From: a virus
Direction: 5' to 3' (one strand)
IMG/VR virus record: IMGVR_UViG_3300025012_000281
Span: 1-23,726 of that record
Length of the DNA stretch: 23,726 nucleotides
This document shows positions 3,633 to 23,726 of the stretch, piece after piece. Every line of letters begins with the position of its first letter. Position 1 is the stretch's first letter. The notes under the pieces are model-generated. The model was not told where the DNA came from. It saw only the letters and a program-made list of their open reading frames with translations, and ran no database searches. Position numbers and translations under genes: made by a program.

Positions 3633-3809
3633 ATGTGTGTTAGTGAATCTCGTTATTGGTATTCTGAACCTTTTCAGGAACCTAAATTACAAACTCCTTT
3701 TATTCCATGTTGTTTCTCCGATGATTTGGAAGGAGAATATACAGATGAAGAGTGTGCTTCGATTGCCATGTATTATGAATTACCGGAAGAGAAAAATACG
3801 GATTGTTAA
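3633..3809 (+). CDS. 58-aa acidic protein, unknown function
   Basis: The ATG at 3633 is preceded by GGAG at 3620-3623. The 58-aa product is acidic, with a CC pair at 26-27 and Cys at 41 and 58. No family recognised. It was preferred over the longer overlapping frame in this region because it has the ribosome binding site and ends just before the next gene's AAGGAG. Confidence 0.5.
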   Translation: MCVSESRYWYSEPFQEPKLQTPFIPCCFSDDLEGEYTDEECASIAMYYELPEEKNTDC

Positions 3810-3820
3810 GGAGAAGAATA

Positions 3821-4393
3821 ATGAGAATATTAATTTCCTGTTTAGTTATTACTTTATTAAGTTTTGGAATTTGTTTTGCGGAGAAATATAATAGGGAAAA
3901 GCATTTTGGTAATGGCTGGATTGACACCGATAACAACGGGAGGGACACAAGGCAGGAAGTTCTAATTGAGGAAAGTATTATTCCTGTTCGATTTGATAAA
4001 AATGGAAAAGTAGAATGGGGAATCTGGATTTGCAGATATACCGGAAGTATTATTACAAATCCTTCTGAATTGGATATAGACCATTTTATTCCTTTAAAAG
4101 AAGCATGGATTTCTGGCGCTGATAAATGGAGTCAGGAAAGACGTATTGAGTATGCAAATTATCTTGCTGACCCAAATCATTTAATTGCAGTCACAGCCAA
4201 GAGTAATCGGGAAAAGGGAGCTAAAAACCCGTCTGATTGGATGCCATTGATTAATAGAGTAGAATACAGAATTCTTTGGATAATGATAAAAGAAAAATGG
4301 GGATTATGTTTTGATAAAAAAGAACGTGAATGGTTTGAAGATACTTATGTAAGAACTATTTTTTCTAAAAACCAAATATGTGAGGAACAATAA
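3821..4393 (+). CDS. Exported HNH nuclease (DUF1524/GmrSD-C-like)
   Basis: The 190-aa product, started at ATG 3821 after AAGGAG, begins with a Sec-type signal peptide: Arg-Ile, a hydrophobic core, and a likely cleavage after FGICFA (residue 20). The mature part matches secreted HNH nucleases. It has the N-terminal block GWIDTDNNGRDTRQEVL (32-48), the catalytic LDIDHFIPLKEAW (84-96, with D87-H88), the block RRIEYANYLADPNHLIAV (107-124) and the NREKG motif (129-133). These are the positions of the DH, N and H/N residues expected of a beta-beta-alpha-metal active site. It would cleave DNA or RNA outside the cytoplasm. It sits between small unknowns and a papain-like gene. A longer frame from a TTG at 3803 is less likely because it would hide the signal peptide. 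Confidence 0.8.
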   Translation: MRILISCLVITLLSFGICFAEKYNREKHFGNGWIDTDNNGRDTRQEVLIEESIIPVRFDKNGKVEWGIWICRYTGSIITNPSELDIDHFIPLKEAWISGADKWSQERRIEYANYLADPNHLIAVTAKSNREKGAKNPSDWMPLINRVEYRILWIMIKEKWGLCFDKKEREWFEDTYVRTIFSKNQICEEQ

Positions 4394-4394
4394 A

Positions 4395-5060
4395 ATGGAA
4401 TTCTGTCTAAACATTGAACCACATTTACAACCCTACCCAAAGAAAAATCCCGGTGGGGATTGTTTTGCTTGTGCCACTACTGCTGCAATCAATTATTTAT
4501 TTCCAGAAAACAAAGTAACCTTTGATGAGGTCTTTGAGGCATTTAAAGATAAGCAAGGACATTTATGTAATTCATGGGATTTTTACCATTTTGCTTTTTA
4601 TGCTTTGTGCAATCACCAAAATGATAGAACCGTTGATATTTATACTGATTGTGTTCTTCCTAATTTTTATACAAGCAGATTCAATCCTAATTTTTATCAT
4701 TTTGAACCTGCAAGGGAATATACTGATAGAATAGAAGGTTTATTGAGAAGTGGTTGGGTTATTTTAACAAGTATATCAATGAGTGGTACTGGTCCTTATG
4801 ATGAGAAACTTATGTTTAAAGGAACAGACCATATTGTTATCGTGGATGGAATTAAAAAAGTATGGGTAAACCAATATGATGAAAATAATAATTTCATTTG
4901 TGCTTCACAAGAAGAGTTTATCCACGTTGTTTGTTCTGCTAAAGGTAAATTTTGGGTAAAGGGAAGAGACTGGTTTAGAAAATATGGTGCAGCTGCATGG
5001 TGGCAAATAAGAAAAGATGATAGAACATACATTGATGAAAAGGAATTAAATAATGAATAA
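4395..5060 (+). CDS. Papain/C39-like fold protein, conserved in phages
   Basis: 221 aa, starting at ATG 4395 with GAGGA at 4382-4386, directly after the nuclease stop. GGDCFACATTAAINYL (20-35) resembles the catalytic Cys helix of papain-like/C39 enzymes, and GTDHIVIVDG (143-152) provides a His (H146) and Asp (D151) in the usual order. The end is aromatic-rich with GAAAWW (198-203). It has no signal peptide and no membrane segment. The Cys-His-Asp layout suggests a cysteine peptidase, amidase or transferase, but the substrate is unknown; function is inference, while conservation of this architecture in phage proteins is from memory. Confidence 0.55.
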   Translation: MEFCLNIEPHLQPYPKKNPGGDCFACATTAAINYLFPENKVTFDEVFEAFKDKQGHLCNSWDFYHFAFYALCNHQNDRTVDIYTDCVLPNFYTSRFNPNFYHFEPAREYTDRIEGLLRSGWVILTSISMSGTGPYDEKLMFKGTDHIVIVDGIKKVWVNQYDENNNFICASQEEFIHVVCSAKGKFWVKGRDWFRKYGAAAWWQIRKDDRTYIDEKELNNE

Positions 5061-8880: not shown

Positions 8881-9696
8881 TCAAGTTTTATAATCATAAA
8901 TATATTTATCAGGGTATTTCAAGGCATTGACCAAATGAATTAATCTATCATCATCCTTGTCTTCTATAATGTTATCCCACAGTCTTGCGATTCTGCCTTG
9001 TGGATTTAAAACCCATTTATCTAAAGGCCAATTAGGGTCATTGAATGGGGTTTTATAAACTGGATTCCACTTAGGAATAGACTGTTCAATTCCTCCCCAT
9101 TTTTCAGTCATATATTGTTTATTCAAAGCAAATGATTTTCTTGATTTTAAAGCATAAATTGGATTTTTTCTAACAGTAGAAGAATATTCATGTAAAAATA
9201 AATCTTTATTTCCTTTACTGTGTAAATAATTAATTCCTGAAAGTTTTACCCTCAGTCTATAATCATCATCTTCACAATAATTCACAATATTTTCATCAAA
9301 AGTACCAACAATATCAAAACACTTTCTACTTACATAAAAACAATTAAATTGGTGGGAAGATTCTACAAAATCATATTTTTCTATTTTATAAATAAATTCT
9401 TCCCAAAACCCAGATAAAAAAGCAGTATCACTACCAACCAAAACAACACCATCAAAATCATTTTTTAAAAATGCTTCTCGTAAAATAATATTCCAACCAC
9501 CCGAAACATACCAATTATTTTTTCTTCGCAAATAAATAGAAAGATTATCTCTGTGTTTATTTATAATTGGTTCCATTTCAGGATGACGAAATCCCTGCCA
9601 TAAAACACATTTATCTACATTTTTAGGCCATGAAGAAATACATTTATCCAATAATTCTGGATTGGAAAACGCAAGTGTAGAAATTAAAATCTTCAT
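8881..9696 (-). CDS. GT-A family 2-like glycosyltransferase
   Basis: 271 aa. Start ATG 9696 follows GGAATGAAA, a weak site, two codons after the in-frame TGA of the upstream methyltransferase. The N-terminal strand ILISTLAFSNPELLDKCI, the VLVGSDTAFLSGF block with its D at 90 (metal-binding DxD-like), and GTFDENIVNYCEDDDYRLRV (131-150, with the E-D acceptor-side motif) are typical of GT2 enzymes. It would transfer a nucleotide-sugar moiety in the cytoplasm. Its acceptor is unknown. The neighbouring methyltransferases and GT2-GT9 fusion suggest that it works in a small glycan-building or glycan-decorating set. Confidence 0.8.
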   Translation of the reverse strand: MKILISTLAFSNPELLDKCISSWPKNVDKCVLWQGFRHPEMEPIINKHRDNLSIYLRRKNNWYVSGGWNIILREAFLKNDFDGVVLVGSDTAFLSGFWEEFIYKIEKYDFVESSHQFNCFYVSRKCFDIVGTFDENIVNYCEDDDYRLRVKLSGINYLHSKGNKDLFLHEYSSTVRKNPIYALKSRKSFALNKQYMTEKWGGIEQSIPKWNPVYKTPFNDPNWPLDKWVLNPQGRIARLWDNIIEDKDDDRLIHLVNALKYPDKYIYDYKT

Positions 9697-9699
9697 TTT

Positions 9700-10224
9700 T
9701 CATTCCATTATCTTTTGAACGATTAAAATACAATTGTAATCATCGTTTTCAAAATGTTCTTCAGAATGAATGATATAAAGGCTATATTCTTTGCAAAATG
9801 TTTTTACCTTTGAAATATTGCTAAGGATGTTTGTTACAAAGTTCATTCCAAATTCAGCATATTTATGTTCTGTATTTCTTATTTTTGTTTTTTGTCTATA
9901 AATGGATTCATCGGGAAAAAGGAGACAAAGATAACCATTTGGTTTAATAACTCTAAGCCATTCAATTAATACATCTTGTGGATTTAAAAAGTCCTCAATT
10001 ACATGACTACTAAAAATGTACGATAAACTATTATCAGAAAACATGGATAAATCTCTTGCATCTCCTTCTATATTTTGTGGGTCATCCCCCACTGAACTAT
10101 ATTTATCGGGCAAATCAAAGGTGATTGCAGTAGGAGTTATGGCATCACCACCATAACCAATATCTAAGCCCGTTCCCTGACAGTATTCAGTAAATAAATG
10201 GCGGTGCTTGTTTGTTTCAGACAT
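9700..10224 (-). CDS. SAM-dependent methyltransferase (type 11-like), short
   Basis: 174 aa; AAAGGAGATTTAAA precedes ATG 10224. Motif I reads GLDIGYGGDA (19-28); IEGDARDLSMFSDNSLSYIF (52-71) holds the acidic end of strand 4 and the region after it; and a VIEDFLNPQDVLIEWLRVIKP helix and loop follow (75-95). This is the order of class I methyltransferases of the Methyltransf_11 kind. The substrate is unknown. It is shorter than usual, with the usual helical cap reduced. It ends with TGA two codons before the next gene's start, in the same frame. Confidence 0.7.
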   Translation of the reverse strand: MSETNKHRHLFTEYCQGTGLDIGYGGDAITPTAITFDLPDKYSSVGDDPQNIEGDARDLSMFSDNSLSYIFSSHVIEDFLNPQDVLIEWLRVIKPNGYLCLLFPDESIYRQKTKIRNTEHKYAEFGMNFVTNILSNISKVKTFCKEYSLYIIHSEEHFENDDYNCILIVQKIME

Positions 10225-10245
10225 TTTAAATCTCCTTTATTATAT

Positions 10246-10941
10246 TTAAAATTCCCATTTATTTTTAGAAAATAGACCACAGAATTCATCCATAACGCCC
10301 ATTCCGAAAAATGCTTTTTGTGGTGGTTGAATGGAAGTCCAACTATAACCACCAAGTTTGTTGATTATTTTCCAATAATCAGGACAATTCATTGCGGTAA
10401 TATGGTGTGGGTTTCCTCTCCTATCCCCACCGGCATCATTTACAATGGTTCCAACATTTAAAAGAAAACCATATTTGGTTACTCGCATGATTTCAGAAAT
10501 AGCATTTTCCATTTTGTTTTTTGGAATCATGGAAAGAACACCCACACAATAGGACCAATCAAATTGGTCATTATCATAAGGCAGTTTATTTCTCAAATCA
10601 CAGAATTCCAAATCAATATTAAATCTTTCTTTTGCAATTATTCTTCCTGATTCAGAAAATTCACAACCTTCAGCTTTATATCCTTTATCTCTGAATTGCT
10701 GAACCATGCTGCCAGCACCAGCACCAACGTCAAGAATTGTAAAATCATTATCACCAATAAAATTATTAAACAAACGAGTAAAATAATTAATCAATTGGTG
10801 AGCACTTTTATCAATTCTGGCAGGATTTACACCATCAGAATATAGCCAATAATCTGAATTGAACGTTCTTTCAGGATAACCAGTTTTATCAAAGTTTTCC
10901 TTTTTCTTTTCCACAACGATTTGTCTTTCAGGATAAGGCAT
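10246..10941 (-). CDS. SAM-dependent methyltransferase
   Basis: 231 aa; ATG 10941 follows AAAGGAGAAAAAGTA. Motif I is FTILDVGAGAGSMVQQF (67-83), followed by YKAEGCEFSESGRIIAKERF, where E of GCEFS binds the ribose in class I methyltransferases, then DLRNKLPYDNDQFDWSYCVG (motif IV region) and a C-terminal domain with aromatic residues. It resembles sugar-chain or small-molecule methyltransferases encoded beside glycosyltransferases. An O-methylation of a glycan is a reasonable inference, but the target is not shown. Confidence 0.75.
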   Translation of the reverse strand: MPYPERQIVVEKKKENFDKTGYPERTFNSDYWLYSDGVNPARIDKSAHQLINYFTRLFNNFIGDNDFTILDVGAGAGSMVQQFRDKGYKAEGCEFSESGRIIAKERFNIDLEFCDLRNKLPYDNDQFDWSYCVGVLSMIPKNKMENAISEIMRVTKYGFLLNVGTIVNDAGGDRRGNPHHITAMNCPDYWKIINKLGGYSWTSIQPPQKAFFGMGVMDEFCGLFSKNKWEF

Positions 10942-10957
10942 TACTTTTTCTCCTTTG

Positions 10958-11086
10958 TTAGATTTTTACCCATTTATTCCAAGGAAATTTCCTAATCAGC
11001 TTATATCTTACACCACAAATACATCTGAACTCATCACCAATTTTTGCTTCTTTTGGTCTATAGCCTTTACAATTATGATAACTCAC
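10958..11086 (-). CDS. 42-aa zinc-ribbon peptide, GTG start
   Basis: The GTG at 11084-11086 overlaps the stop of the large glycosyltransferase gene as GTGA, with GAAAGGGG upstream. The product, M/V-SYHNCKGYRPKEAKIG, carries C-x-C-G near residues 22-25 and a basic, Trp-containing end. Small zinc-binding protein of unknown function, translationally coupled to the upstream gene. Confidence 0.5.
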   Translation of the reverse strand: MSYHNCKGYRPKEAKIGDEFRCICGVRYKLIRKFPWNKWVKI

Positions 11087-12627
11087 AATTTTGTACCCCT
11101 TTCAAATTTATCAATAACCATTTCCAAAGTAATATTTTCCAAACAATAAATTTTATCTCTTTTGCATTTTGTAAATACCTTTGGTGCTTCTTCCAAATCA
11201 TGGTGACAACCAGCACAAGGGTTTTTTGTTTTATCCAACCATACTACATTTGTAATTTTCCAATTGTGTACCCGCAAGTGGGGTGAAGTGCAACCAAAAA
11301 TCAAAAATGTTGGAATATTCATTGATTGTGCAAAATGGGCTAAACTTCCGTCCATTCCCAAATACATATCAGAATTATTAATTAAATTCATTGTTTGTTG
11401 GAATGTTGTTTTCCCAACTAAATTTAAACCAACGCCCAAATAATAAGATGGATTAGAACCAACTTCAATAATTGTTTTGTCTTTATATTTTTCTTTTACA
11501 TATTCAATGAATAATTTCCATCTATCCAAAGGCCATGTTCTACTTTCCCAACTTCCTTCTGAATTGACAATTATTGTATTATCTTTTTTCTTATTGTTTT
11601 TATCAATCCCGTAATAGACAGGTTTTCCTTCACCCTCTTTTAGAATAACACCAGCAGTTTCAGCATAAGCATTAATTGGATGGATATTTGGTTTTCTTTC
11701 ATATACCAGATTTAAATCAATAGTTAAGTCATATTGAAATTTATGCTTTAAGCCTTTTCCGTATTCAATAATATAAGGATTATTCACCAAACCTTGAGGA
11801 CAAGATGTTTCAAAGAATATTTGACAACTAGGATATTTTTCTTTTAAAAGCGGAAGAATACCAGTTACTAAGAAAGTGTCACCAATTGCTCCATCCCGAA
11901 TAACTAATATTCTCATAGGCTCAAATTTCCTTGTTTTAAGATATTTCTTCCATCTTTCTCTTAAAAATAAATTATTTTCCATTTCAATTTTTTTGAAATC
12001 AATGTCCACTTTTTCATTTTTAAAAGACTGATGATGTAAATGCAAAATATTTATATCAATACATTCAGCAATTTTATAACCATAATTTCTCAATCTAAGG
12101 GATAAATCAGCATCTTCACAAAAAGCGAAGTTCATGTATTTTTCTTCAAACAAACCACCAACCGTATTGACATAATCGCGATTCACAATGAAACAAGAAC
12201 CCTCGATATAATCAATTCCTTGGCTTTTCCTTGGACAACCTTTCCCATCTGAACCCAAGTAGCCATAAGCCTGTCTTGGGCCAATCTGGGCTAATCCAAA
12301 GTGTTCTTCCATTATATGGATAAACTTGTAATCCCATCCTTTTGTTTTAATAATTAAATCATTATTCAAAACGCAGAAATATTTTGATTTAGTGGAATTG
12401 AAAATATTATTATGTGCTTTGATAAATCCAAGGTTTTCTTTGTTTCTGACATATTTGATTTTTTTATGTTTTAACGAGGAAAGGTATTTTTTGGTATCTG
12501 GTCTTGAGGCATTATCAGAAATAATAAGAAGGTAATCTTCAGTGACGGTATTTTCAAGAATGGATTCAATACATTTCTTTGTTACCTCTAGTTGGTTATA
12601 AACCAATAATGAAATAATTAATCGCAT
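11083..12627 (-). CDS. GT2-GT9 fusion glycosyltransferase
   Basis: 514 aa; ATG 12627 follows AAAGGAAAAATAA. Residues 1-235 form a GT2 domain: an ISLLVYNQLEVTKKCIESIL start, DNAS at 38-41, the NND triad at 88-90, and FAFCEDADLSLRLRN at 167-181. Residues from 238 form a GT9 heptosyltransferase-like domain: MRILVIRDGAIGDTFLVTG (238-256) matches the family's N-terminal galGD motif, and GMDGSLAHFAQSMNIPTFLI near the end matches the donor-binding region. GT9 enzymes usually transfer heptose to lipopolysaccharide. The two activities in one chain would add two sugars in sequence. An internal Met238 with AAGGAA upstream could also give a separate GT9 product. The family calls are by motif. Confidence 0.8.
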   Translation of the reverse strand: MRLIISLLVYNQLEVTKKCIESILENTVTEDYLLIISDNASRPDTKKYLSSLKHKKIKYVRNKENLGFIKAHNNIFNSTKSKYFCVLNNDLIIKTKGWDYKFIHIMEEHFGLAQIGPRQAYGYLGSDGKGCPRKSQGIDYIEGSCFIVNRDYVNTVGGLFEEKYMNFAFCEDADLSLRLRNYGYKIAECIDINILHLHHQSFKNEKVDIDFKKIEMENNLFLRERWKKYLKTRKFEPMRILVIRDGAIGDTFLVTGILPLLKEKYPSCQIFFETSCPQGLVNNPYIIEYGKGLKHKFQYDLTIDLNLVYERKPNIHPINAYAETAGVILKEGEGKPVYYGIDKNNKKKDNTIIVNSEGSWESRTWPLDRWKLFIEYVKEKYKDKTIIEVGSNPSYYLGVGLNLVGKTTFQQTMNLINNSDMYLGMDGSLAHFAQSMNIPTFLIFGCTSPHLRVHNWKITNVVWLDKTKNPCAGCHHDLEEAPKVFTKCKRDKIYCLENITLEMVIDKFERGTKL

Positions 12628-12908
12628 TTATTTTTCCTTTGTTTTATTTCTTCTATTTTTCTTTGTTTTTTTCTTTTATAACTGTCCGAGTTTCTTTTAC
12701 GCAAACAGACACGACAAAGAAGATTGCTACTCTTTTCCAAACTTGGGAGCCATGTTTTTTTATTTAATTCACAACCACATTTTTTACATTTAGGTTTTCC
12801 TGTGTAACCACGTTTATGACTTCCAGTATGACAATCGAGTAATCTTTTTTGAAAAAATATCTTACCACATTCTTTACATTTAAATTCACCAAATTTTCTT
12901 TCACTCAT
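12618..12908 (-). CDS. C2H2 zinc finger plus zinc ribbon protein
   Basis: 96 aa; AAAAGGAATAAATAAA precedes ATG 12908. It contains a textbook C2H2 spacing, C11-x2-C14-x12-H27-x3-H31, followed by a second zinc site C41-x2-C44 ... C65-x2-C68. The remainder is highly basic (RKRNSDSYKRKKQRK). A nucleic-acid-binding role is likely. Prokaryotic C2H2 fingers are uncommon. It overlaps the GT fusion gene by 10 nt, so they are co-transcribed. Confidence 0.65.
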   Translation of the reverse strand: MSERKFGEFKCKECGKIFFQKRLLDCHTGSHKRGYTGKPKCKKCGCELNKKTWLPSLEKSSNLLCRVCLRKRNSDSYKRKKQRKIEEIKQRKNKCD

Positions 12909-14107: not shown

Positions 14108-14830
14108 TTAATAGTAATCCCCATTTTTTAGTTTCTCTGCCTCATCTTTATCCATTCCAGCATAATAGACATTATTAAAAAAATTGCTAATGTCTATTGT
14201 TTTAAAATCTTTAATATAATCATCAAACGTATATGTATAATTGCCGTTATCTTTTAGCAAATATTTCCAATGTTCGTGTTTTATCAGTTCGTTTAAACGC
14301 AACATGAATAATTGATTAAAAAAATCCTTTGGACCCCAATCACTACAAGCATGGTGTGGTGGAAAAATACTTTTAACATAAAAACCATTGTTTGCTTTCA
14401 TTCCTTTTTTCATATAACAAATGCCACTAAAGGTTATAACTTTGTTTACCAATCTGTTTTCCCTTTTGACTATTTTTTTGTAGTGTAATCCAGAATAACA
14501 TTCATAAGCAGTACAGGTGTAACATATGCCGAGTTCCTTTATCATATTATCATGACGACCAGTATATAACATATCCAGTAATTTTGGAAAAAGTAAAGAT
14601 TTTAAAAAATAAGGAATTAAATCTAAGGGGTCTTGACCACTATCAATAATTTCTTGTACGTCTTTTTTATTAAAATGGGCAGCTATTTCAAATAATACCC
14701 AAGTTCTTCTTTCCTTTTCTTCCTCAGTCATAAGTGGCATAGAAGAAAAACATTCTTTCTTCTTCTTCAATTCAACTTTTTTCCAATCTGGTAACTTTAA
14801 AAAATTTTCCACAGTCAATTGCTTTGCCAT
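14108..14830 (-). CDS. 240-aa phage protein with Cys-rich centre
   Basis: TATGGAGATTTATAT precedes ATG 14830. It is the first gene after the promoter at 14862-14890. The N-terminal ~80 residues are charged and helical. The centre has ICYTCTAYECYSG (about 101-113) and HHACSDWG (about 159-166), possibly a metal site with four or more Cys. The C-terminal part is polar and aromatic. I do not recognise the family. Confidence 0.6.
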   Translation of the reverse strand: MAKQLTVENFLKLPDWKKVELKKKKECFSSMPLMTEEEKERRTWVLFEIAAHFNKKDVQEIIDSGQDPLDLIPYFLKSLLFPKLLDMLYTGRHDNMIKELGICYTCTAYECYSGLHYKKIVKRENRLVNKVITFSGICYMKKGMKANNGFYVKSIFPPHHACSDWGPKDFFNQLFMLRLNELIKHEHWKYLLKDNGNYTYTFDDYIKDFKTIDISNFFNNVYYAGMDKDEAEKLKNGDYY

Positions 14831-14861
14831 ATATAAATCTCCATAAAAGTTATTTTACTCA

Positions 14862-14890
14862 ATTTTATGGCTTGAAATGCTCATTGTCAA
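14862..14890 (-). promoter_or_regulatory. Sigma70-type promoter for leftward genes below 14830
   Basis: On the minus strand TTGACA (complement of 14885-14890) is followed after 17 bp by TAAAAT (complement of 14862-14867): six of six and five of six consensus bases. A start near 14855 would give a 25-nt leader to the gene at 14830. It lies in the 67-nt gap after the 598-aa gene. Confidence 0.7.
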
Positions 14891-14897
14891 CATAAAT

Positions 14898-16694
14898 TTA
14901 AAAATCATTATCTTCTTTTATATAATATCTCCAAAGATTCTCAAATTCATAGTCCTCTTGTCTTTTGTTTTCAATAAAATTTTGCCAATTTGCATGGCTA
15001 CAAATGTCTTTTACCATAACAATATTTCTAGCTCTATCATCTAGCAAATATTGCAAATATTCTTTTGTTATTGTATTTTTTCCTTTAAAACTAAGACCAC
15101 ACATATCCCTTTTGTTAAAGATTGCATCGTCAAGCAAATCATTTAAAAAAGAAACTAAACGATATTTATTTTTATTATATTGTTCTTTTCCTTGTTCCTT
15201 GTCTGGATACATTGAAACAAAAATTCTAGCCCATTCTTGTTGCGCTGCTTCATATTTATCATTCTTTTTTACTTCCTTATAAAATAACATATCCCTGAAA
15301 TTTTTTTCCTCTTCCTGTGAAAATATTTCAAAAACATTCCTTTTATTCATTTCAACGGTCAATAAGTCTAGTAATTTTATTTTTTTCAAATGTTTAAAAC
15401 ACCTAAATTCTGAAAAATTATTCAGTCTTTTGATAGCTGAACAAAAATTATTATTGCTAATATTTTTAACAAGGGACCAATAGCTAACAGCTACAACAGT
15501 GTGCATATATGTTTTATTATTTAAATTAGTATTTGTATGACTAAATTTTTTATTATCCATTTTATTAAAAATATTTAATATATGGCTAGTATTCTTATAA
15601 TCCAAAGTTTTATTGTTTTCAAAAATTTCCAAAAACATATCAAAAAGTTTTTGCTGGATAAAACCATAAGTTTTGTTTTCTCTGTTTTTAAACAAATCAT
15701 TCAAAGAACAACCGTAACGCATACCAAATTGAGCATCCAAGGTTTTTATCTCAGGGTTGGTCAAATGTTTTGTTTCTTTATATTTGTTCAAAATATTTTT
15801 AATATTGCTTGGTATTTCAGATTCAAAAGTTATTTTTGTTTTTTTAAATTTATCCCGCAAAGCGGGGTTTCTTTCAGGGAACAAAGATTTTATTTCTTTT
15901 GATTCAAAATTTTCTTTACGTTTCAAAATTAATCGCATAGGTTTATTCCTTTGCTTTGAAGAAAAAACGCCGGGAACAACAGCCGTGACACGAACGGGGT
16001 TTTTGTTCGTGTCTAAAGACCGAAGGTCTTTTTTATCTTTAAATTTCTTTATCTCTTTAGATAATACATCAGTATTTTCTACTATTATATTAGTAGTATT
16101 ATATACCTTTATAAGGTGTTGAAAATTTGCTTGTAATTCTGGTGAGTTACAAATCAAACTGGTATCCTTAAGAATGCCAATTTTTTTGCATTTTTTTAAC
16201 TTTTTTGAATCATTTTTCTCCAAAATTCTTTTATATCTTTGATTTATTTTTGGTATGTTTGGCAGAATCAGAATCTTATATCCATGCCCCTTTTTGCCTG
16301 ATTTCCAATTTGCCTTAACAATTATTTCTTTTTTTTCAAGTGTCAAAATAAGTCTGGAAACATGATCTATTTGTTCCATCCCTAAATGCCTAGCAATGTT
16401 TTCTCTTTTAAAAAATAAAGGTTTATTAGAGCAGAAATAGTGGTGTGCAAATTTGATGAAATTCTTTTGTAATTGACTAAGGGATTTTATATTATAATTT
16501 TCTTTTAAAATTGAAATGGGGTCTTTTTGTTTTTGCCAAGGAGAATCAGGGAGGGAATTTATAAGAGAACAAAAGTCTTTTCCAAAAGAAATAAGGATAT
16601 TTCTTGGATTTTCAGATTTTTTGTCATTATCAAAAGATGTATTTTTTTCTACTTGCTTTTTTCTTTCCAAAATTTTACTATCATTTAAAGCCAT
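14898..16694 (-). CDS. Winged-helix protein, possible replication initiator
   Basis: 598 aa; AAGGAGTTTAAGGCA precedes ATG 16694. Residues 78-145 read as a winged helix-turn-helix (FIKFAHHYFCSNKPLFFKRE, then the recognition helix region IARHLGMEQIDHVSRLILTLE and a wing KGHGYKILIL). The middle, about 180-300, is low-complexity Lys/Asn/Ser/Pro, then a long helical domain of unknown type follows. This fits phage or plasmid replication initiators and some transcription regulators. The low-complexity linker coincides with a cluster of inverted repeats (15854-16117), as in lambda-type initiator genes that contain the origin. It has no helicase or primase motifs. The functional call is inference. Confidence 0.5.
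   Translation of the reverse strand: MALNDSKILERKKQVEKNTSFDNDKKSENPRNILISFGKDFCSLINSLPDSPWQKQKDPISILKENYNIKSLSQLQKNFIKFAHHYFCSNKPLFFKRENIARHLGMEQIDHVSRLILTLEKKEIIVKANWKSGKKGHGYKILILPNIPKINQRYKRILEKNDSKKLKKCKKIGILKDTSLICNSPELQANFQHLIKVYNTTNIIVENTDVLSKEIKKFKDKKDLRSLDTNKNPVRVTAVVPGVFSSKQRNKPMRLILKRKENFESKEIKSLFPERNPALRDKFKKTKITFESEIPSNIKNILNKYKETKHLTNPEIKTLDAQFGMRYGCSLNDLFKNRENKTYGFIQQKLFDMFLEIFENNKTLDYKNTSHILNIFNKMDNKKFSHTNTNLNNKTYMHTVVAVSYWSLVKNISNNNFCSAIKRLNNFSEFRCFKHLKKIKLLDLLTVEMNKRNVFEIFSQEEEKNFRDMLFYKEVKKNDKYEAAQQEWARIFVSMYPDKEQGKEQYNKNKYRLVSFLNDLLDDAIFNKRDMCGLSFKGKNTITKEYLQYLLDDRARNIVMVKDICSHANWQNFIENKRQEDYEFENLWRYYIKEDNDF
15854..16117. other. Inverted-repeat cluster within winged-helix gene
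   Basis: Five stem-loops: CCCGC/GCGGG (15854-15866); GACACGAAC/GTTCGTGTC (15987-16013); AAAGACC/GGTCTTT (16015-16031), which on the minus strand is closed by a C(TTCG)G tetraloop; CTACTA/TAGTAG (16079-16096); ACCTT/AAGGT (16105-16117). The first three are GC-rich in an AT-rich setting; the last two lie in a stretch of nearly pure A/T. They correspond to residues of the linker, not of a folded domain. Candidate origin. Confidence 0.55.
16653..16681 (+). promoter_or_regulatory. Weak promoter candidate for an antisense RNA
   Basis: TTGCTT (16653-16658) and TACTAT (16676-16681) are 17 bp apart on the + strand, inside the 5' end of the leftward winged-helix gene. Only three and four of six consensus bases match, so chance is a real possibility in AT-rich DNA. 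Confidence 0.2.
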
Positions 16695-17408: not shown

Positions 17409-17930
17409 ATGCCACCAAAATTAAGGTTAAAGTCAAAACGAGAAAAAATCAACAGATTAAATGTTAAAAAACAAAAAATGGCAAAGTATTTGCGAAAAGG
17501 ACTTAAAATAGGTGAAGCAACACTACTTGCAGATGTTTCAAAATCAGAATTAGCAGAAATGCGTTCCGATGTTACTTTTGAAGAATTTATTCAACGTAGT
17601 CAGGCATTGTTGGAACAGGAACAACTAGAGAATATATCTGATGCGGGTTCGTCAGGAACATGGCAAGCATCAGCATGGATGTTGGAAAGATTATTTCCTG
17701 ATAAGTATGGAAAAAAAGACACCATAGAACATAAATATGAAATTAAATTAGTCACATTTCAAAATATTGTTCTTGAAGTTATAAATGAATGTTCCCCACA
17801 AATAAAACAAACAATAATGCAAAGACTTAAAAAAGTGGATACATCCAATCCCTTGCTGATAGAATATCATAGCAAGGCACATGTTGAAGCACATACGGAT
17901 AAAATTATTGATGTTGAATATGATGATTAA
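17409..17930 (+). CDS. Terminase small subunit
   Basis: 173 aa, start ATG 17409 with GATGAGG upstream, 17 nt before the large subunit. The N-terminal 30 residues are basic. A helix-turn-helix follows (KYLRKGLKIGEATLLADVSKS, about 27-47), then acidic and helical segments and the conserved block GTWQASAWMLERLFPDKYGKK (83-103), typical of phage TerS proteins whose middle domain ends with the pattern AxxWxLERxxPxxYG. It would recognise the packaging site and regulate the large subunit as a ring oligomer. Position directly before TerL supports this. Confidence 0.8.
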   Translation: MPPKLRLKSKREKINRLNVKKQKMAKYLRKGLKIGEATLLADVSKSELAEMRSDVTFEEFIQRSQALLEQEQLENISDAGSSGTWQASAWMLERLFPDKYGKKDTIEHKYEIKLVTFQNIVLEVINECSPQIKQTIMQRLKKVDTSNPLLIEYHSKAHVEAHTDKIIDVEYDD

Positions 17931-17947
17931 ATGAAATTGAGGCAAGC

Positions 17948-20530
17948 ATGAAAAAGAAATTTGTTAATACTTCTGCATCATTGTTGGGTAAGGATACTAA
18001 GACATTTCTAAAGGGTGGAATGTCTGATTTACTTTCAGGAATAGATTTACCAACAGATGCTTTGATTCCAAAGAAATCAGAAGATTTTGTTCAGAAAGTA
18101 TTGAAAGACACAAAAGGTGATTTAGTTGTGAATGAACCAGTACATAATATAATGCATAGGTTTATGAGAATAGCAAGGAGAAAAGGCTTTAATAAATATA
18201 TGATTTTAGGCGGGTTCGGATTAGGCAAGTGCTTTGGCAAAGGAACCAAGGTACTTTTGCATGATTGTTCTGTAAAAAATATTGAAGATATTAAGATTGG
18301 TGATTTGTTGATGGGTGATGATGGAACACCAAGAAGAGTTTTAAATTTGGGTAGTGGCAAAGAAGAGATGTATAAAATTACACTCAAAAATGGTGATTCT
18401 TTTGTATGTAATGAGTCTCATATTATGTCCTTTAAAATTTCAAATAAATACAAAACAAAAAAATACTCAAAGTACAATAAAGGAGATATTGTAAATTTAA
18501 ATTTTAAAGAATGGTTGACTTTTCCAGAATATGCTAAGAAAAATTGTTTTAAGTTATATAAATCAAAATTGGAATTTAAAGAAAGTAACACTTTATTAGA
18601 GCCTTATTTTTTTGGTGTTTGGTTAGGTGATGGGCATTCAAATAATCTTGAATTTACTATAAATAACCAAGATGAGGAAATTGCTGATTATCTTTTTGAT
18701 TGGGCAGAAAAGCATAAATTCAAAATAAGGGTGGATGACCAAAAGGGAGATTGCACTAGGTATGGTTTAAATAAAGGAAGGAGTAATTGTAAAAAGTACA
18801 TTCAAAAAACATTTATCATGAAAATAAGCAAGAAAGGAAAAAGAATACCAAAAAACTATTTAATAAACTCAAGGGAAAACAGATTAGAACTTTTAGCGGG
18901 AATGCTTGATACTGATGGTTATAGCTTTGCTAAATGTTTTGAATGGTCTACAAAATATATTGATTTGAGAAATGATTTTCTTTTCCTTTGTCGTTCTCTC
19001 GGTTTTAGATTATCTCATAGAACAAAATATGTTAATGGTGTACCTTATTATGTTGTAGTTGTTAGTGGTGATACACACTTAATACCATGTAAAACTAGAA
19101 AAGCTGTTGAGGAAAGAAAAATAAACAAAAACCCATTGGTTTTTGGTTTTGATGTAGAACCGCTGGGGAAAAAGGAATTTTTTGGTGTTGTTCTTGATGG
19201 TAACAAGCTGTTTTTACTTGAAGACTTTACAGTGGTTCATAACACACAGCAGATTTGTATTGGTTACTCCTTATACAGAATAGCAAAAAATCCAAACATA
19301 CTTATAAAATTAGTTCACGTTTCTGATACAGAGGCAACACATAGATGCCGTTCAATTCGGGATTATATAGAGGGGGATGAAGATTTTAAATCAATTGCAC
19401 CACATATTACACCAACAAATATTTGGGGTTCTGAAAAATTCATTGTTAAAAGAGATTCCCCCGCTGCAAACTGTACCGTTGAATCCCATTCTGTTTTGGG
19501 TACAGGTATTGGTGGTCGTGCAAATTTAATTATTTTTGATGACCCACAAGATTTGAGAACAGCAGTTTATGAGCCAACAACCAGAGTTAAAATTGAAGAT
19601 ACAATTAAGTCGGTATGGATAACTCGATTAATACCTGATGATTCAGAAGCCATTATATTAATCAACAAATGGCATGATTCAGATATAGCATCTTACGTTC
19701 AAAGAAATCCAGCATGGGCATGGATAAGCATTGCTGCTGATGAAAAAACAATGGAACACCTTATTGTAAAGGATTCCTTTGGTAGAAATTTTAAAATTCC
19801 CCTTTGGTCGAAATTTAATAAAGCAGCATTAGAGGATAGAAAAATAACCCTTGGGGAAAGAGATTTTAAAAGAGGTTATTGCTTAATACCTTATTCTGAT
19901 AGTGATAAAACCTTTGGACATTTTGAAAAATGTTGTCATTTTAGTGTTTCTCCAAGAGCAGTAATTGAATTTGAATCAAACTGGATATTTGTTGGTGGTA
20001 TTGACTTTGCTGGCTCCAAACGTCCCGGTACGGTTTTATCCATAGTTGCTGTGCATAGAAAAACTGGATTGAAATTACCGATTGAAATTGTTACGATAAG
20101 GAAGTCCTCAGATTTAACGGGGCATATAATCAGAACATATAGAGAATATGGTGTTGAATTATATTTTGCAGAAAATAACGGTGTTCAGGAAGCCATTATT
20201 GATTTGTTAAAAGCTGCCATGGGGGATGAAAAATTTAAAAAGTATAATATTAAGATTGATGGTTTTCTGACAGGTAGAGGTAAGATGGATATTAATACAG
20301 GTCTTCCTTCTATGGATAAGGAGTTTGAAAATAAAGAATGGATGTTTTGTTTTAATGAAAAACCTGATATAGCTGATGATATGGAACAAAAGCCATGGTC
20401 AAGAATGTATTATGAAATGCTAAATCATCCTTTTCATGAAACTTCTGACATTGCAATGAGTTTATATTTCTGTAGAGAAGCGGCAAAGAAATTGATTAGG
20501 GGTATTGATTCAGGGCCAAATTGCTTTTAG
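17948..20530 (+). CDS. Terminase large subunit with intein
   Basis: 860 aa precursor. Start ATG 17948 follows TTGAGG. Removing the 338-residue intein leaves a 522-aa extein, the usual TerL size. The Walker A is GGFGLGK | T, split by the intein after Lys94; Walker B is NLIIFDDPQD (526-535). In the C-terminal RNase H-like nuclease the metal ligands are D686 (GGIDFAGSKRPGT), E742 (YFAENNGVQEAI) and D834 (HETSDIAMSL). It powers DNA packaging and cuts the concatemer. Splicing must occur before the ATPase can work. The DD in Walker B instead of DE is common in this branch of terminases. Confidence 0.9.
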   Translation: MKKKFVNTSASLLGKDTKTFLKGGMSDLLSGIDLPTDALIPKKSEDFVQKVLKDTKGDLVVNEPVHNIMHRFMRIARRKGFNKYMILGGFGLGKCFGKGTKVLLHDCSVKNIEDIKIGDLLMGDDGTPRRVLNLGSGKEEMYKITLKNGDSFVCNESHIMSFKISNKYKTKKYSKYNKGDIVNLNFKEWLTFPEYAKKNCFKLYKSKLEFKESNTLLEPYFFGVWLGDGHSNNLEFTINNQDEEIADYLFDWAEKHKFKIRVDDQKGDCTRYGLNKGRSNCKKYIQKTFIMKISKKGKRIPKNYLINSRENRLELLAGMLDTDGYSFAKCFEWSTKYIDLRNDFLFLCRSLGFRLSHRTKYVNGVPYYVVVVSGDTHLIPCKTRKAVEERKINKNPLVFGFDVEPLGKKEFFGVVLDGNKLFLLEDFTVVHNTQQICIGYSLYRIAKNPNILIKLVHVSDTEATHRCRSIRDYIEGDEDFKSIAPHITPTNIWGSEKFIVKRDSPAANCTVESHSVLGTGIGGRANLIIFDDPQDLRTAVYEPTTRVKIEDTIKSVWITRLIPDDSEAIILINKWHDSDIASYVQRNPAWAWISIAADEKTMEHLIVKDSFGRNFKIPLWSKFNKAALEDRKITLGERDFKRGYCLIPYSDSDKTFGHFEKCCHFSVSPRAVIEFESNWIFVGGIDFAGSKRPGTVLSIVAVHRKTGLKLPIEIVTIRKSSDLTGHIIRTYREYGVELYFAENNGVQEAIIDLLKAAMGDEKFKKYNIKIDGFLTGRGKMDINTGLPSMDKEFENKEWMFCFNEKPDIADDMEQKPWSRMYYEMLNHPFHETSDIAMSLYFCREAAKKLIRGIDSGPNCF
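18230..19243 (+). other. Intein with LAGLIDADG homing endonuclease in TerL
   Basis: Residues 95-432 of the TerL precursor. It starts with Cys1 in CFGKGTKVLLHD (block A), has block B with N-x-x-H (NESH) where T-x-x-H is usual, and ends FTVVHN with the +1 residue Thr. The homing endonuclease has two LAGLIDADG-type motifs: FFGVWLGDGH (221-230, acid D228) and LLAGMLDTDG (315-324, acid D323). All the elements of a class 1, splicing-competent, mobile intein are present. It sits at the Walker A Lys/Thr junction. Confidence 0.9.
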
Positions 20531-21125: not shown

Positions 21126-23726
21126 ATGGTAAAAAAACTTACCAGTATATTAATTTTTCTGTTATTCATAGCATCAGTCTCTTATTCGATTGAATTGGAT
21201 TCTGATGGAAATAATTATTTGGATACTTCAAAAGGTGGTTTTAATCTTAATCCAGAAACTAACCCTTCTGGTGCTAGAACACTTTTGGTGGTTCCTTCTG
21301 TAACTGATTTAACAAACCATACAGGAAATATAAGTAACCCGCATACAGTTACTAAAACTCAAGTTGGTTTGAGTTATGTGGAGAATATAAAAGTAAATTT
21401 GACGGCAATTATAAATCCACCTGTTACGGCTGATTCCTCCATTGGTTATTCTATTGGTTCCAAATGGGTGAATACTACAAGCAAAATTGTTTGGGAATGT
21501 GTTGATGCCACAGTAAATAATGCAATATGGAAAGAAATAACAATTCAACAATTATCATCTTCTGAAATAAAAACACTTTATGAATTAAATGCAGATACTA
21601 ATGTTTTTACAGACGCAGAAAAAACAAAATTATTTGCAATTGAAGAAAATGCAAATAATTACACTCATCCAGCAAACCACGCTCCGAGTATAATCACACA
21701 AGATGCAAATAATAGATTTGTAACTGATACAGAGAAATCAACGTGGAGCGCAAAACAAGCTGCTTTGGGCTTTACCCCTGAAGATGTTTCTAACAAAAGA
21801 ACTACTTTTCAGATAACACCGGATGATGTACATTATCCAAGTGAGAAACTTGTAAAAGATTCATTGGACGGAAAAGAACCCGCCGACGCAACGATCATTA
21901 AGGAAAGTGAGCTTGCCGCGCTTGAATCCGACCCCACCGTTCCTGGGGCGATTTCTACCCATGCCGGGGAAGCCGACCCGCATACCGGCTACGCGCGGGA
22001 ATCTACACTTGGCAACTCCGCCGGTCTCGATATCGGGATTACGGAAGGGACGGTGGCGGCGGGGGATGACGGGAGGTTCGATCCGCTTGGCGTGTCCGTT
22101 AAAACGGCGGGGGCCGTGGGAGATGGGGGCACAGATGATACATCGGCATTTCAGGCCCTCGTGTCGGCTGGGGCGACCATTAACCTGCCGCCTGGCATCT
22201 ATTATTTGGCATCATCGGTGGTTATCCCCGGCAATGGCAAGCTGATCCTGCGAGGAGCATCCCGGGATAGCGTCATTATCCGTGCCGCACATGGTGTGAC
22301 CGCCTTCGTGACTGCCAACGCTTATCCAGGGGCGACCTTTGCCAAAACAATCGATGTTTCGGGGGTGACGTTCGACGGGGAGCGTGTGCGCGGGACGTTC
22401 CCATATATGTCGTTTGCCACGGACAGTTACGGGATGCTGACGGCGATTCAGGCGGTAGCACAACCCGGCGACCCTGATTCGCGCTTCCGCATCTCGGATT
22501 GCCGGTTCAAGGACATGCCCAACCTTCCGTTTCTGATCGACCATTTCAACAATGTGCAAGTGGATAACTCTATTTTCTACAAGACCCGCGACCCCGGCTT
22601 TCGATTCTGCAATAAGGTCACTTGGGCTCACAACATCACCGAGTTCGGCAGCGATAACGGGGTATCTATTTCTCGCGGTTGCAGGATCGTCGCCGTGACC
22701 GGGAGCCTGTTCAAAGACTGCGAGTCAAACGGGATATGGGTGGCGGGATTCAATCTCGCCCTCTCCGGCACGGCAACGGCGACCGGATCAACCTATAATG
22801 CCGGAGACACCGTGACCCTGACGGCCTTGGCTACGACCTTTTCGAGTAGCTTTCTTGACAATTTGATAACGCTCACCTCGGGCAGCGACGAGGCGACGTT
22901 CAAGGTTATAAGCATTGCATCCGGCACCGCCGCGACCGCCATCTGTGTGACGGCAACCCCTGTGAGCCTGCAAAACACACCGGCGACCTGGTATGCCGCC
23001 CCAGCAACCGGCGTGTCTCAGTTCACTGTCACCGGCAATACCGTGGTCGGGGGGTATTCGTCCAACATCACGGCGGCGGACGGTGGCAGGAACGGGTTGA
23101 TCGCAAACAACACTCTGGTCCGCTCTGGATGGACCGCAGATTCTGAAATTTCCACTACCGGCTCAATCATCACCGGGTCCACGACCCTGACTGTGGCTGA
23201 TGTAACAGGGTTGGCTATCAATGATTTTGTCATCGTGGAGTCCAAGACCTCGTTCGGGCAATACTTCGTCTCCAAAATTACCAACATCGCCGGGACGACA
23301 ATCACCCTTTCCTCTGCGCCAACCGAGACGTTTATCCAGGAGTCAGTGCGAAAGGTCCATCTCAATACCGAATCGGCGCAAATTCGTGTGGCCGGCTCCG
23401 TTGTCGGCCCTGACGTTGCCGGGGAGCGGGTACTAGTCGCGAATAACCTGATGATCGATCCTTCGCGCTTCGGTGTCCAGTTAGGTAGCTCGGCCAACGG
23501 GACGGCAACCGATATTGCTGTACGAGGGAATCAGATGTTTACCCCGCCTTCTGTCTCTACAGCTTCGGCGGCCAGCAGGCACGGTGTTCAGGTGTCGGAA
23601 TCAACCGGGATCCCGCTCAAAAACATCATCGTCGAAACCAACTACTACGAGGGGGCGGGGATGCTGGTCAACCTCTCGCAGCGGGGCGCTTCTCTTAAAA
23701 CCGGCATCCGGATCAAGGACAACGTG
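21126..23726 (+). CDS. Tail-spike-like protein, open at the right edge
   Basis: An unbroken frame of 867 codons from ATG 21126 (GGGAGGAAACAATAA upstream) to the window end, so the C-terminus is missing. It starts with an apparent Sec signal peptide: KK, a hydrophobic core and a possible cut after Ser21. Residues about 60-80 (HTGNISNPHTVTKTQVGL) and 176-215 (KLFAIEENANNYTHPANHAP, IITQDANNRFVTDTEK) are recurrent phage tail-fibre repeats. From about 320 the VKTAGAVGDGGTDDTSAFQAL motif opens a right-handed beta-helix/pectate-lyase-like domain with the repeated N-x-hydrophobic rungs of tail spikes (INLPPGIYYLASSVVIPG). It may bind or degrade surface glycans. From about 21870 the composition turns GC-rich in the same frame. 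Confidence 0.8.
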   Translation, partial: MVKKLTSILIFLLFIASVSYSIELDSDGNNYLDTSKGGFNLNPETNPSGARTLLVVPSVTDLTNHTGNISNPHTVTKTQVGLSYVENIKVNLTAIINPPVTADSSIGYSIGSKWVNTTSKIVWECVDATVNNAIWKEITIQQLSSSEIKTLYELNADTNVFTDAEKTKLFAIEENANNYTHPANHAPSIITQDANNRFVTDTEKSTWSAKQAALGFTPEDVSNKRTTFQITPDDVHYPSEKLVKDSLDGKEPADATIIKESELAALESDPTVPGAISTHAGEADPHTGYARESTLGNSAGLDIGITEGTVAAGDDGRFDPLGVSVKTAGAVGDGGTDDTSAFQALVSAGATINLPPGIYYLASSVVIPGNGKLILRGASRDSVIIRAAHGVTAFVTANAYPGATFAKTIDVSGVTFDGERVRGTFPYMSFATDSYGMLTAIQAVAQPGDPDSRFRISDCRFKDMPNLPFLIDHFNNVQVDNSIFYKTRDPGFRFCNKVTWAHNITEFGSDNGVSISRGCRIVAVTGSLFKDCESNGIWVAGFNLALSGTATATGSTYNAGDTVTLTALATTFSSSFLDNLITLTSGSDEATFKVISIASGTAATAICVTATPVSLQNTPATWYAAPATGVSQFTVTGNTVVGGYSSNITAADGGRNGLIANNTLVRSGWTADSEISTTGSIITGSTTLTVADVTGLAINDFVIVESKTSFGQYFVSKITNIAGTTITLSSAPTETFIQESVRKVHLNTESAQIRVAGSVVGPDVAGERVLVANNLMIDPSRFGVQLGSSANGTATDIAVRGNQMFTPPSVSTASAASRHGVQVSESTGIPLKNIIVETNYYEGAGMLVNLSQRGASLKTGIRIKDNV
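21865..21895. other. Composition breakpoint in the tail-spike gene
   Basis: By eye the gene is about 25-35% GC before this point and about 50-67% GC after, a change within roughly 30 bp. The reading frame is intact across it, between the fibre-repeat part and the pectate-lyase-like part. This is the expected pattern of a domain swap; no target duplication or integrase site is visible. Confidence 0.75.

Follow-up and report, generated by a model that had tools for sequence, protein, structure and literature searches.

A phage gene cassette with a GT2-GT9 fusion and two methyltransferases, a candidate pathway for virion glycosylation

A protein that joins a GT2 and a GT9 glycosyltransferase domain is encoded, together with two class I SAM methyltransferases (MT231 and MT174) and a second GT2-type glycosyltransferase (GT271), on the minus strand of the virus record IMGVR_UViG_3300025012_000281. 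The whole of this 23.7-kb record (23,726 nt) was analysed and is called the window; the cassette occupies positions 8881-12627. Comparison with related viruses, denoted below by contig (L002 and so on), established the genes, their domains and conserved motifs, purifying selection, modular variation and a position in a D3-type structural cluster. On the likeliest reading, for which we consider the chances evenly balanced, the cassette is a cytosolic pathway adding a methylated glycan to the phage's own virion proteins.

The four genes and the GT2-GT9 fusion

An earlier note on this DNA had described a four-gene cassette (a GT2-like gene, two SAM methyltransferases and a GT2-GT9 protein) with a small zinc ribbon between the genes. 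The four genes are real. An AAAGGA(G)-type ribosome-binding site stands before each of the fusion, MT231, MT174 and the 96-aa gene, and both methyltransferases exceeded the Pfam cutoffs. GT271 gave no match in a Pfam scan and matched a PHROG glycosyltransferase family at 7e-10. The set is kept in other phages at 46-80% identity, far beyond chance. When hydrophobic stretches were sought in all four enzymes as membrane helices, none was seen, and the proteins are taken to be soluble. The order on the minus strand, 5' to 3', is the 96-aa zinc-finger-like gene, the fusion, a 42-aa ORF, MT231, MT174 and GT271. The 96-aa gene, which overlaps the start of the fusion with its 3' end, also lies upstream of the fusion in L002, L005, L006 and L058. 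The small zinc ribbon between the genes did not hold up, as the 42-aa ORF was absent from all relatives searched for it, and in L005 and L058 the genes flanking its position abut or overlap. A Lys/Ala-rich histone H1-like protein is encoded near the cassette in the window, and its gene adjoins the cassette in L002, L005, L006 and L058.

Table 1. Features of the window, with positions, strands and the observations that define them
Feature	Position	Strand	Observations
GT2-GT9 fusion, 514 aa	11083..12627	-	GT2 about 1-230, GT9 about 238-510; PF00535 + PF01075
MT231, class I SAM methyltransferase, 231 aa	10246..10941	-	PF13649 46.9 bits
MT174, short class I SAM methyltransferase, 174 aa	9700..10224	-	PF08241 37.3 bits
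GT271, second GT2-type glycosyltransferase, 271 aa	8881..9696	-	GSDT + EDDDYR motifs; phrog_29879
C2H2/zinc-ribbon-like protein, 96 aa	12618..12908	-	weak zf-C2H2 match
ORF between fusion and MT231, 42 aa	10958..11086	-	GTG start; doubtful gene
GmrSD_C/HNH-type nuclease and 226-aa protein	3803-5060		nuclease 196 aa, PF07510
Histone H1-like protein, 129 aa	13230-13619		Lys/Ala-rich
Terminase genes	17409-20530	+	
Intein in TerL, 338 aa	18230-19243		PF05203 + PF05204
Pectate-lyase-like tail-spike gene	21126 to window end		signal-peptide-like N-terminus
GC jump inside the spike gene	21700-23726		GC from about 0.32 to 0.55-0.60

Both halves of the fusion scored over their Pfam cutoffs (PF00535, residues 9-111, 58 bits against 23.3; PF01075, residues 347-472, 35 bits against 22), which bears out the two-domain description. 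Eight fusions were aligned for the motif check, in which the DxN, NND and ED motifs of the GT2 half were looked at. D90 and E171-D172 were invariant in all eight, and D38 and N39 were present in every row covering that part. In the GT9 half, D250, R363, D426 and H431 were invariant in 8/8, as was a C-terminal CxxC..C..C cluster; when aligned to WaaC, R363 falls on the lysine of TRDDK. The earlier note had named non-conserved catalytic residues in the GT9 half as the observation that would speak against it, and the invariance of these residues favours it. For the closest pair, L005/L006, omega was 0.067 for the whole fusion (GT2 half 0.055, GT9 half 0.078), compared with 0.064 for TerL; for MT231 it was 0.158 (window/L002). 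Both halves are under strong purifying selection, equal to that on TerL. Because the catalytic motifs are invariant and omega is low, both domains appear to be kept active, as far as sequence can indicate. The AF2 model of the fusion had a pLDDT of 74 and a pTM of 0.66.

An internal start at Met238 with a ribosome-binding site, proposed in the earlier note as the source of a free GT9 form, was rejected. Of the eight aligned proteins, four have M at this position, two have I and two L, and the preceding AGGA simply falls within Arg-Lys codons.

The nearest solved structure to the GT9 half was the LPS heptosyltransferase WaaF (1psw, 6e-10), and its nearest NCBIfam models were RfaQ and heptosyltransferases III, II and I. 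Like WaaC, WaaF and WaaQ, it has the GD motif with the catalytic Asp and the R/K and D..H donor-site positions. In the fusion, however, the GT9 domain lies behind a GT2 domain, and the scores against the equivalogs for LPS heptosyltransferases I, II and III (31.7, 34.3 and 35.4 bits) were far under the curated cutoffs (185, 135 and 170). The enzymes might extend or methylate precursors of the LPS core or O-antigen in the cytosol, changing the receptor so that other phages are excluded or loss of progeny on debris is prevented. GT2, GT9 and methyltransferase enzymes are indeed the standard ones for O-antigen and core. Against this stand the solubility of the four proteins and the surroundings of the cassette, in which no flippase, polymerase or membrane-anchored Gtr-type enzyme was recognised. 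We regard modification of the host surface as rather unlikely, though it ranks next after the virion.

The second nearest solved structure was that of TibC (4rb4, 5e-05), an autotransporter heptosyltransferase whose four cysteines 339/342/358/370 form an iron finger (PMC4358343). The cysteine cluster of the GT9 half is at a comparable C-terminal place, and TibC/Aah O-heptosyltransferases share with the fusion a GT9-type catalytic domain. On this basis, host proteins such as pili, flagella, adhesins or a defence protein could be glycosylated during infection. Unlike TibC, the fusion has no N-terminal beta-barrel and carries a GT2 domain in that place; its score for hepto_Aah_TibC (TIGR04414) was 21.2 bits, against a curated cutoff of 200. 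The iron finger as a mark of protein heptosylation was also tried and rejected, since an ordinary Mucilaginibacter GT9 protein (L070) has the same four-cysteine cluster, which is therefore not TibC-specific. Host-protein heptosylation is improbable on these observations.

Distribution and exchange of the cassette genes

Relatives of the whole fusion were found on eight IMG/VR contigs (46-66% identity, full or near full length). Five of these came from a first profile scan and the rest through scans with MT174 and MT231; these eight came back when a later scan used independent seeds. Among 50,697 phage records searched, none covers 80% of the fusion. A scan of genome contigs with short seeds gave GT2-type or GT9-type matches only and no fusion, and searches of the phage collection with MT231 and GT271 gave no matches.

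Six records (the window, L002, L005, L006, L058 and L047) look like one AT-rich lineage of siphophages. TerL is 78-89% identical among the first four, and L058 and L047 are tied to them through flanking genes. The second lineage, HK97-type and unrelated to the first, has a GC content of 50-52% and comprises L053 and the contigs L007 and L008, which by sequence are one phage. Identity of the fusion is 53-89% inside the AT-rich lineage and 47-51% between the two. Both lineages are present in sample 3300025012 (L006 and L008).

The fusion is constant in all records, while the methyltransferases are swapped or lost. MT231 is 80% identical in L002 and 57-62% in L005, L058 and L007; it is missing from L006 and L053, and L047 has another methyltransferase in its place. 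Six other viruses encode MT174 at 55-61% identity; L058 lacks it and has instead, upstream of the fusion, a gene of the O-methyltransferase type (PF13578). As fourth gene, the AT-rich lineage has GT271, which four relatives share at 56-61% identity, and L007 and L053 have another GT2-like gene.

In the MT231 tree, L005 joined the unrelated phage L007 (97/96), and a grouping of the window with L005 was rejected (p 0.0007). The closest relative of the window's fusion, by contrast, is that of L005 (66%), ahead of that of L002 (56%), although the test against window plus L002 gave only p 0.07. This contrast points to exchange of single cassette genes between phages. In the MT174 tree, nesting of the L007 gene inside the AT-rich lineage was neither supported nor rejected (AU p 0.25). 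In L002, three endonuclease-like ORFs that are related to one another (10485-11213, 12172-12879 and 14783-15472; HNH/AP2 type by eye) are inserted between and beside the cassette genes, and the first of them had no Pfam match.

The heptosyltransferase-like domain fused to a GT2 domain had been called unusual in a phage. This stands for GT2-GT9, which is rare in phages, but in bacteria fusions of GT9 with other glycosyltransferases are common. GT4-GT9 proteins are common in Omnitrophota, to judge from open frames of ~700-730 aa seen in most of the 30 genomes, and were confirmed by Pfam for two proteins, and one Omnitrophota protein (L084) is a GT2-GT9. The arrangement as an invention of phages was therefore rejected. 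As in the phage fusion, GT9 follows the other glycosyltransferase in these bacterial proteins. The GT2 half of L084, however, has no significant similarity to that of the phage protein, and the GT9 halves share only 28% identity over 112 aa; the fusion is either independent or very old. GT2 halves of the phage fusions matched Omnitrophota with E down to 1e-38, and no match at 1e-32 was obtained in 398 genomes of the phylum of an Aeromonas. These matches are not proof of the host, as the scoring covered only a few candidates from each genome.

The TerL intein of the window starts with Cys, ends with VVHN and interrupts the Walker A motif GGFGLGK/T; TerL of L002, L005 and L006 has no intein. In a 96-kb AT-rich relative (G691), inteins or homing domains occur in DNA polymerase A (PF14890) and another protein (LAGLIDADG_3), at L077:16540-18762 and L072:4975-7071. 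The GC jump inside the window's spike gene marks either a mosaic spike module or an assembly joint, and L006 has a similar rise in a tail-fibre-like gene at the contig end. The GmrSD_C/HNH-type nuclease bears a signal peptide and lies beside a protein that is papain-like by eye; the pair is kept in the phage of L006 (L078:17977-19198). A protein resembling by eye a proteasome beta or HslV-type Ntn hydrolase is encoded in L002 (16042-16599; no Pfam match), L006 (12207-12815) and L058 (4400-4939).

Position in phage genomes and the likely target

In L007 and L053 the cassette lies within the structural cluster, on the strand of the head and tail genes. In L007 it follows the head-closure gene and precedes the HK97-gp10 gene on the same strand. 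Such a place inside a head-tail cluster is not a typical conversion region, which argues against the host-surface explanation. In the window's lineage the cassette is close to the terminase and structural genes but runs divergently from them, so that late expression there would be an assumption; this counts against a virion target.

The same junction is occupied in Pseudomonas phage D3 (genus Detrevirus), where orf12-orf13, a GT9-like gene and a methyltransferase gene, stand between head closure and HK97 gp10. L007 and the D3-type phage PP9W2 are 60% identical in head closure and 59% in the tail tube, and a sialyltransferase-like gene between capsid and connector is common to L007 and D3. Unlike the fusion, orf12 encodes 275 aa without a GT2 domain; there is one methyltransferase, of a different family, and the functions are putative. 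The orf12 copy of PP9W2 matched nothing in a Pfam scan, and its GT9 label rests on annotations of close relatives (several records) and a GLGD-type N-terminus. When this copy was compared with the present GT9 half by BLAST, no significant similarity was found, which also counts against a virion target.

The 96-kb relative looks nearly complete, as genes that are adjacent in the window sit at its two ends. It has a further GT9 gene directly after the tail genes (L072:1443-2348), adjoined by a gene for a second protein with a GLGD-type start, and it encodes a TylF-type methyltransferase. The placements at the D3-type junction and beside tail genes favour action during virion assembly.

Distant relatives of MT174 were counted in favour of virion glycosylation, as they occur in glycan clusters of other phages next to glycosyltransferase genes and a CTP-transferase-like protein. 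An MT174-like methyltransferase in a glycan cluster is seen on the phage contigs L054, L055 and L057 (GC 0.58-0.60). The L054 cluster, the one checked, contains a CTP-transferase-like protein, a PLOD-type glycosyltransferase, a B12-binding radical SAM protein and a GT4; that of L057 also has a GT9.

Phage DNA is a further conceivable target: a base would be hydroxymethylated and glycosylated and the sugar methylated, giving resistance to restriction. Phage glycosyltransferases of diverse folds do glycosylate modified bases, as stated in a passage of PMC12619734 that cites Pyle 2024. The GT2 half matched the T4-type glucosyltransferase family phrog_842 weakly (E 0.03). However, PF00303, the thymidylate-synthase-type family to which the known pyrimidine hydroxymethylases belong, was absent from the 96-kb relative, the contig of L002 and the window, while 9/14 control genomes matched. 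Most of the 96-kb relative was read, and ThyX, dUTPase, a uracil-DNA-glycosylase-type domain, DnaB, DNA polymerase A and RecA were found but no hypermodification enzyme was recognised. Nor does the cassette adjoin replication genes. DNA hypermodification is thus very improbable. The earlier note had left virion, phage DNA and host lipopolysaccharide side by side; the absence of PF00303 disfavours DNA, and the virion is favoured because of the D3-type head-tail synteny, the soluble enzymes and the extra GT9 gene beside tail genes.

Proposed pathway and its meaning

For glycosylation of the virion, the acceptor, the donor sugars, the order of steps and the benefit are our proposal. The pathway would begin with a GT2 enzyme, GT271 or the N-terminal fusion half, attaching a sugar to a protein of the capsid or tail, and the fused halves would then add more sugars in sequence. 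Among the genes of the fusion-bearing phages, none for sugar-nucleotide synthesis was recognised, and the donors must therefore come from the host; the GT9 half probably uses an ADP-heptose-like donor. The two methyltransferases would O-methylate the sugars. With the fusion as a fixed core, exchange of the methyltransferases and the last glycosyltransferase would change the outer face of the coat, and the particle may be shielded from binding molecules or its adsorption tuned.

In mycobacteriophages, glycosyltransferases and an O-methyltransferase modify the capsid and tail tube, according to passages of PMC11600133 and PMC12619734 that cite Freeman 2023. As described there, these modules resemble the cassette in combining glycosyltransferase genes with a methyltransferase in a tailed phage, with the glycan of the cassette likewise proposed for capsid or tail proteins. 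They differ in that their function was tested, and in that the core here is a GT2-GT9 fusion; the likeness drawn here is one of gene types.

A locus with GT9 and methyltransferase genes at the junction of head closure and tail completion is thus seen as the D3-type pair in Pseudomonas phages and as the GT2-GT9 cassette in L007 and L053. This recurrence suggests a wider occurrence of sugar-coated virions; to our knowledge, virion glycosylation has been firmly described for only a few phages. D3 can be cultivated, which opens coating by the junction locus to direct testing. If virions do carry methylated sugars, this would matter for particle stability, the choice of receptor and recognition by binding molecules. 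More speculatively, and on balance doubtfully, the cassette may be a portable one, with a bifunctional GT2-GT9 enzyme building a heptose-containing glycan on virion proteins, traded between unrelated tailed phages and fitted with swappable methyltransferases. If this is true, phages would vary their surface chemistry much as bacteria vary their O-antigens.
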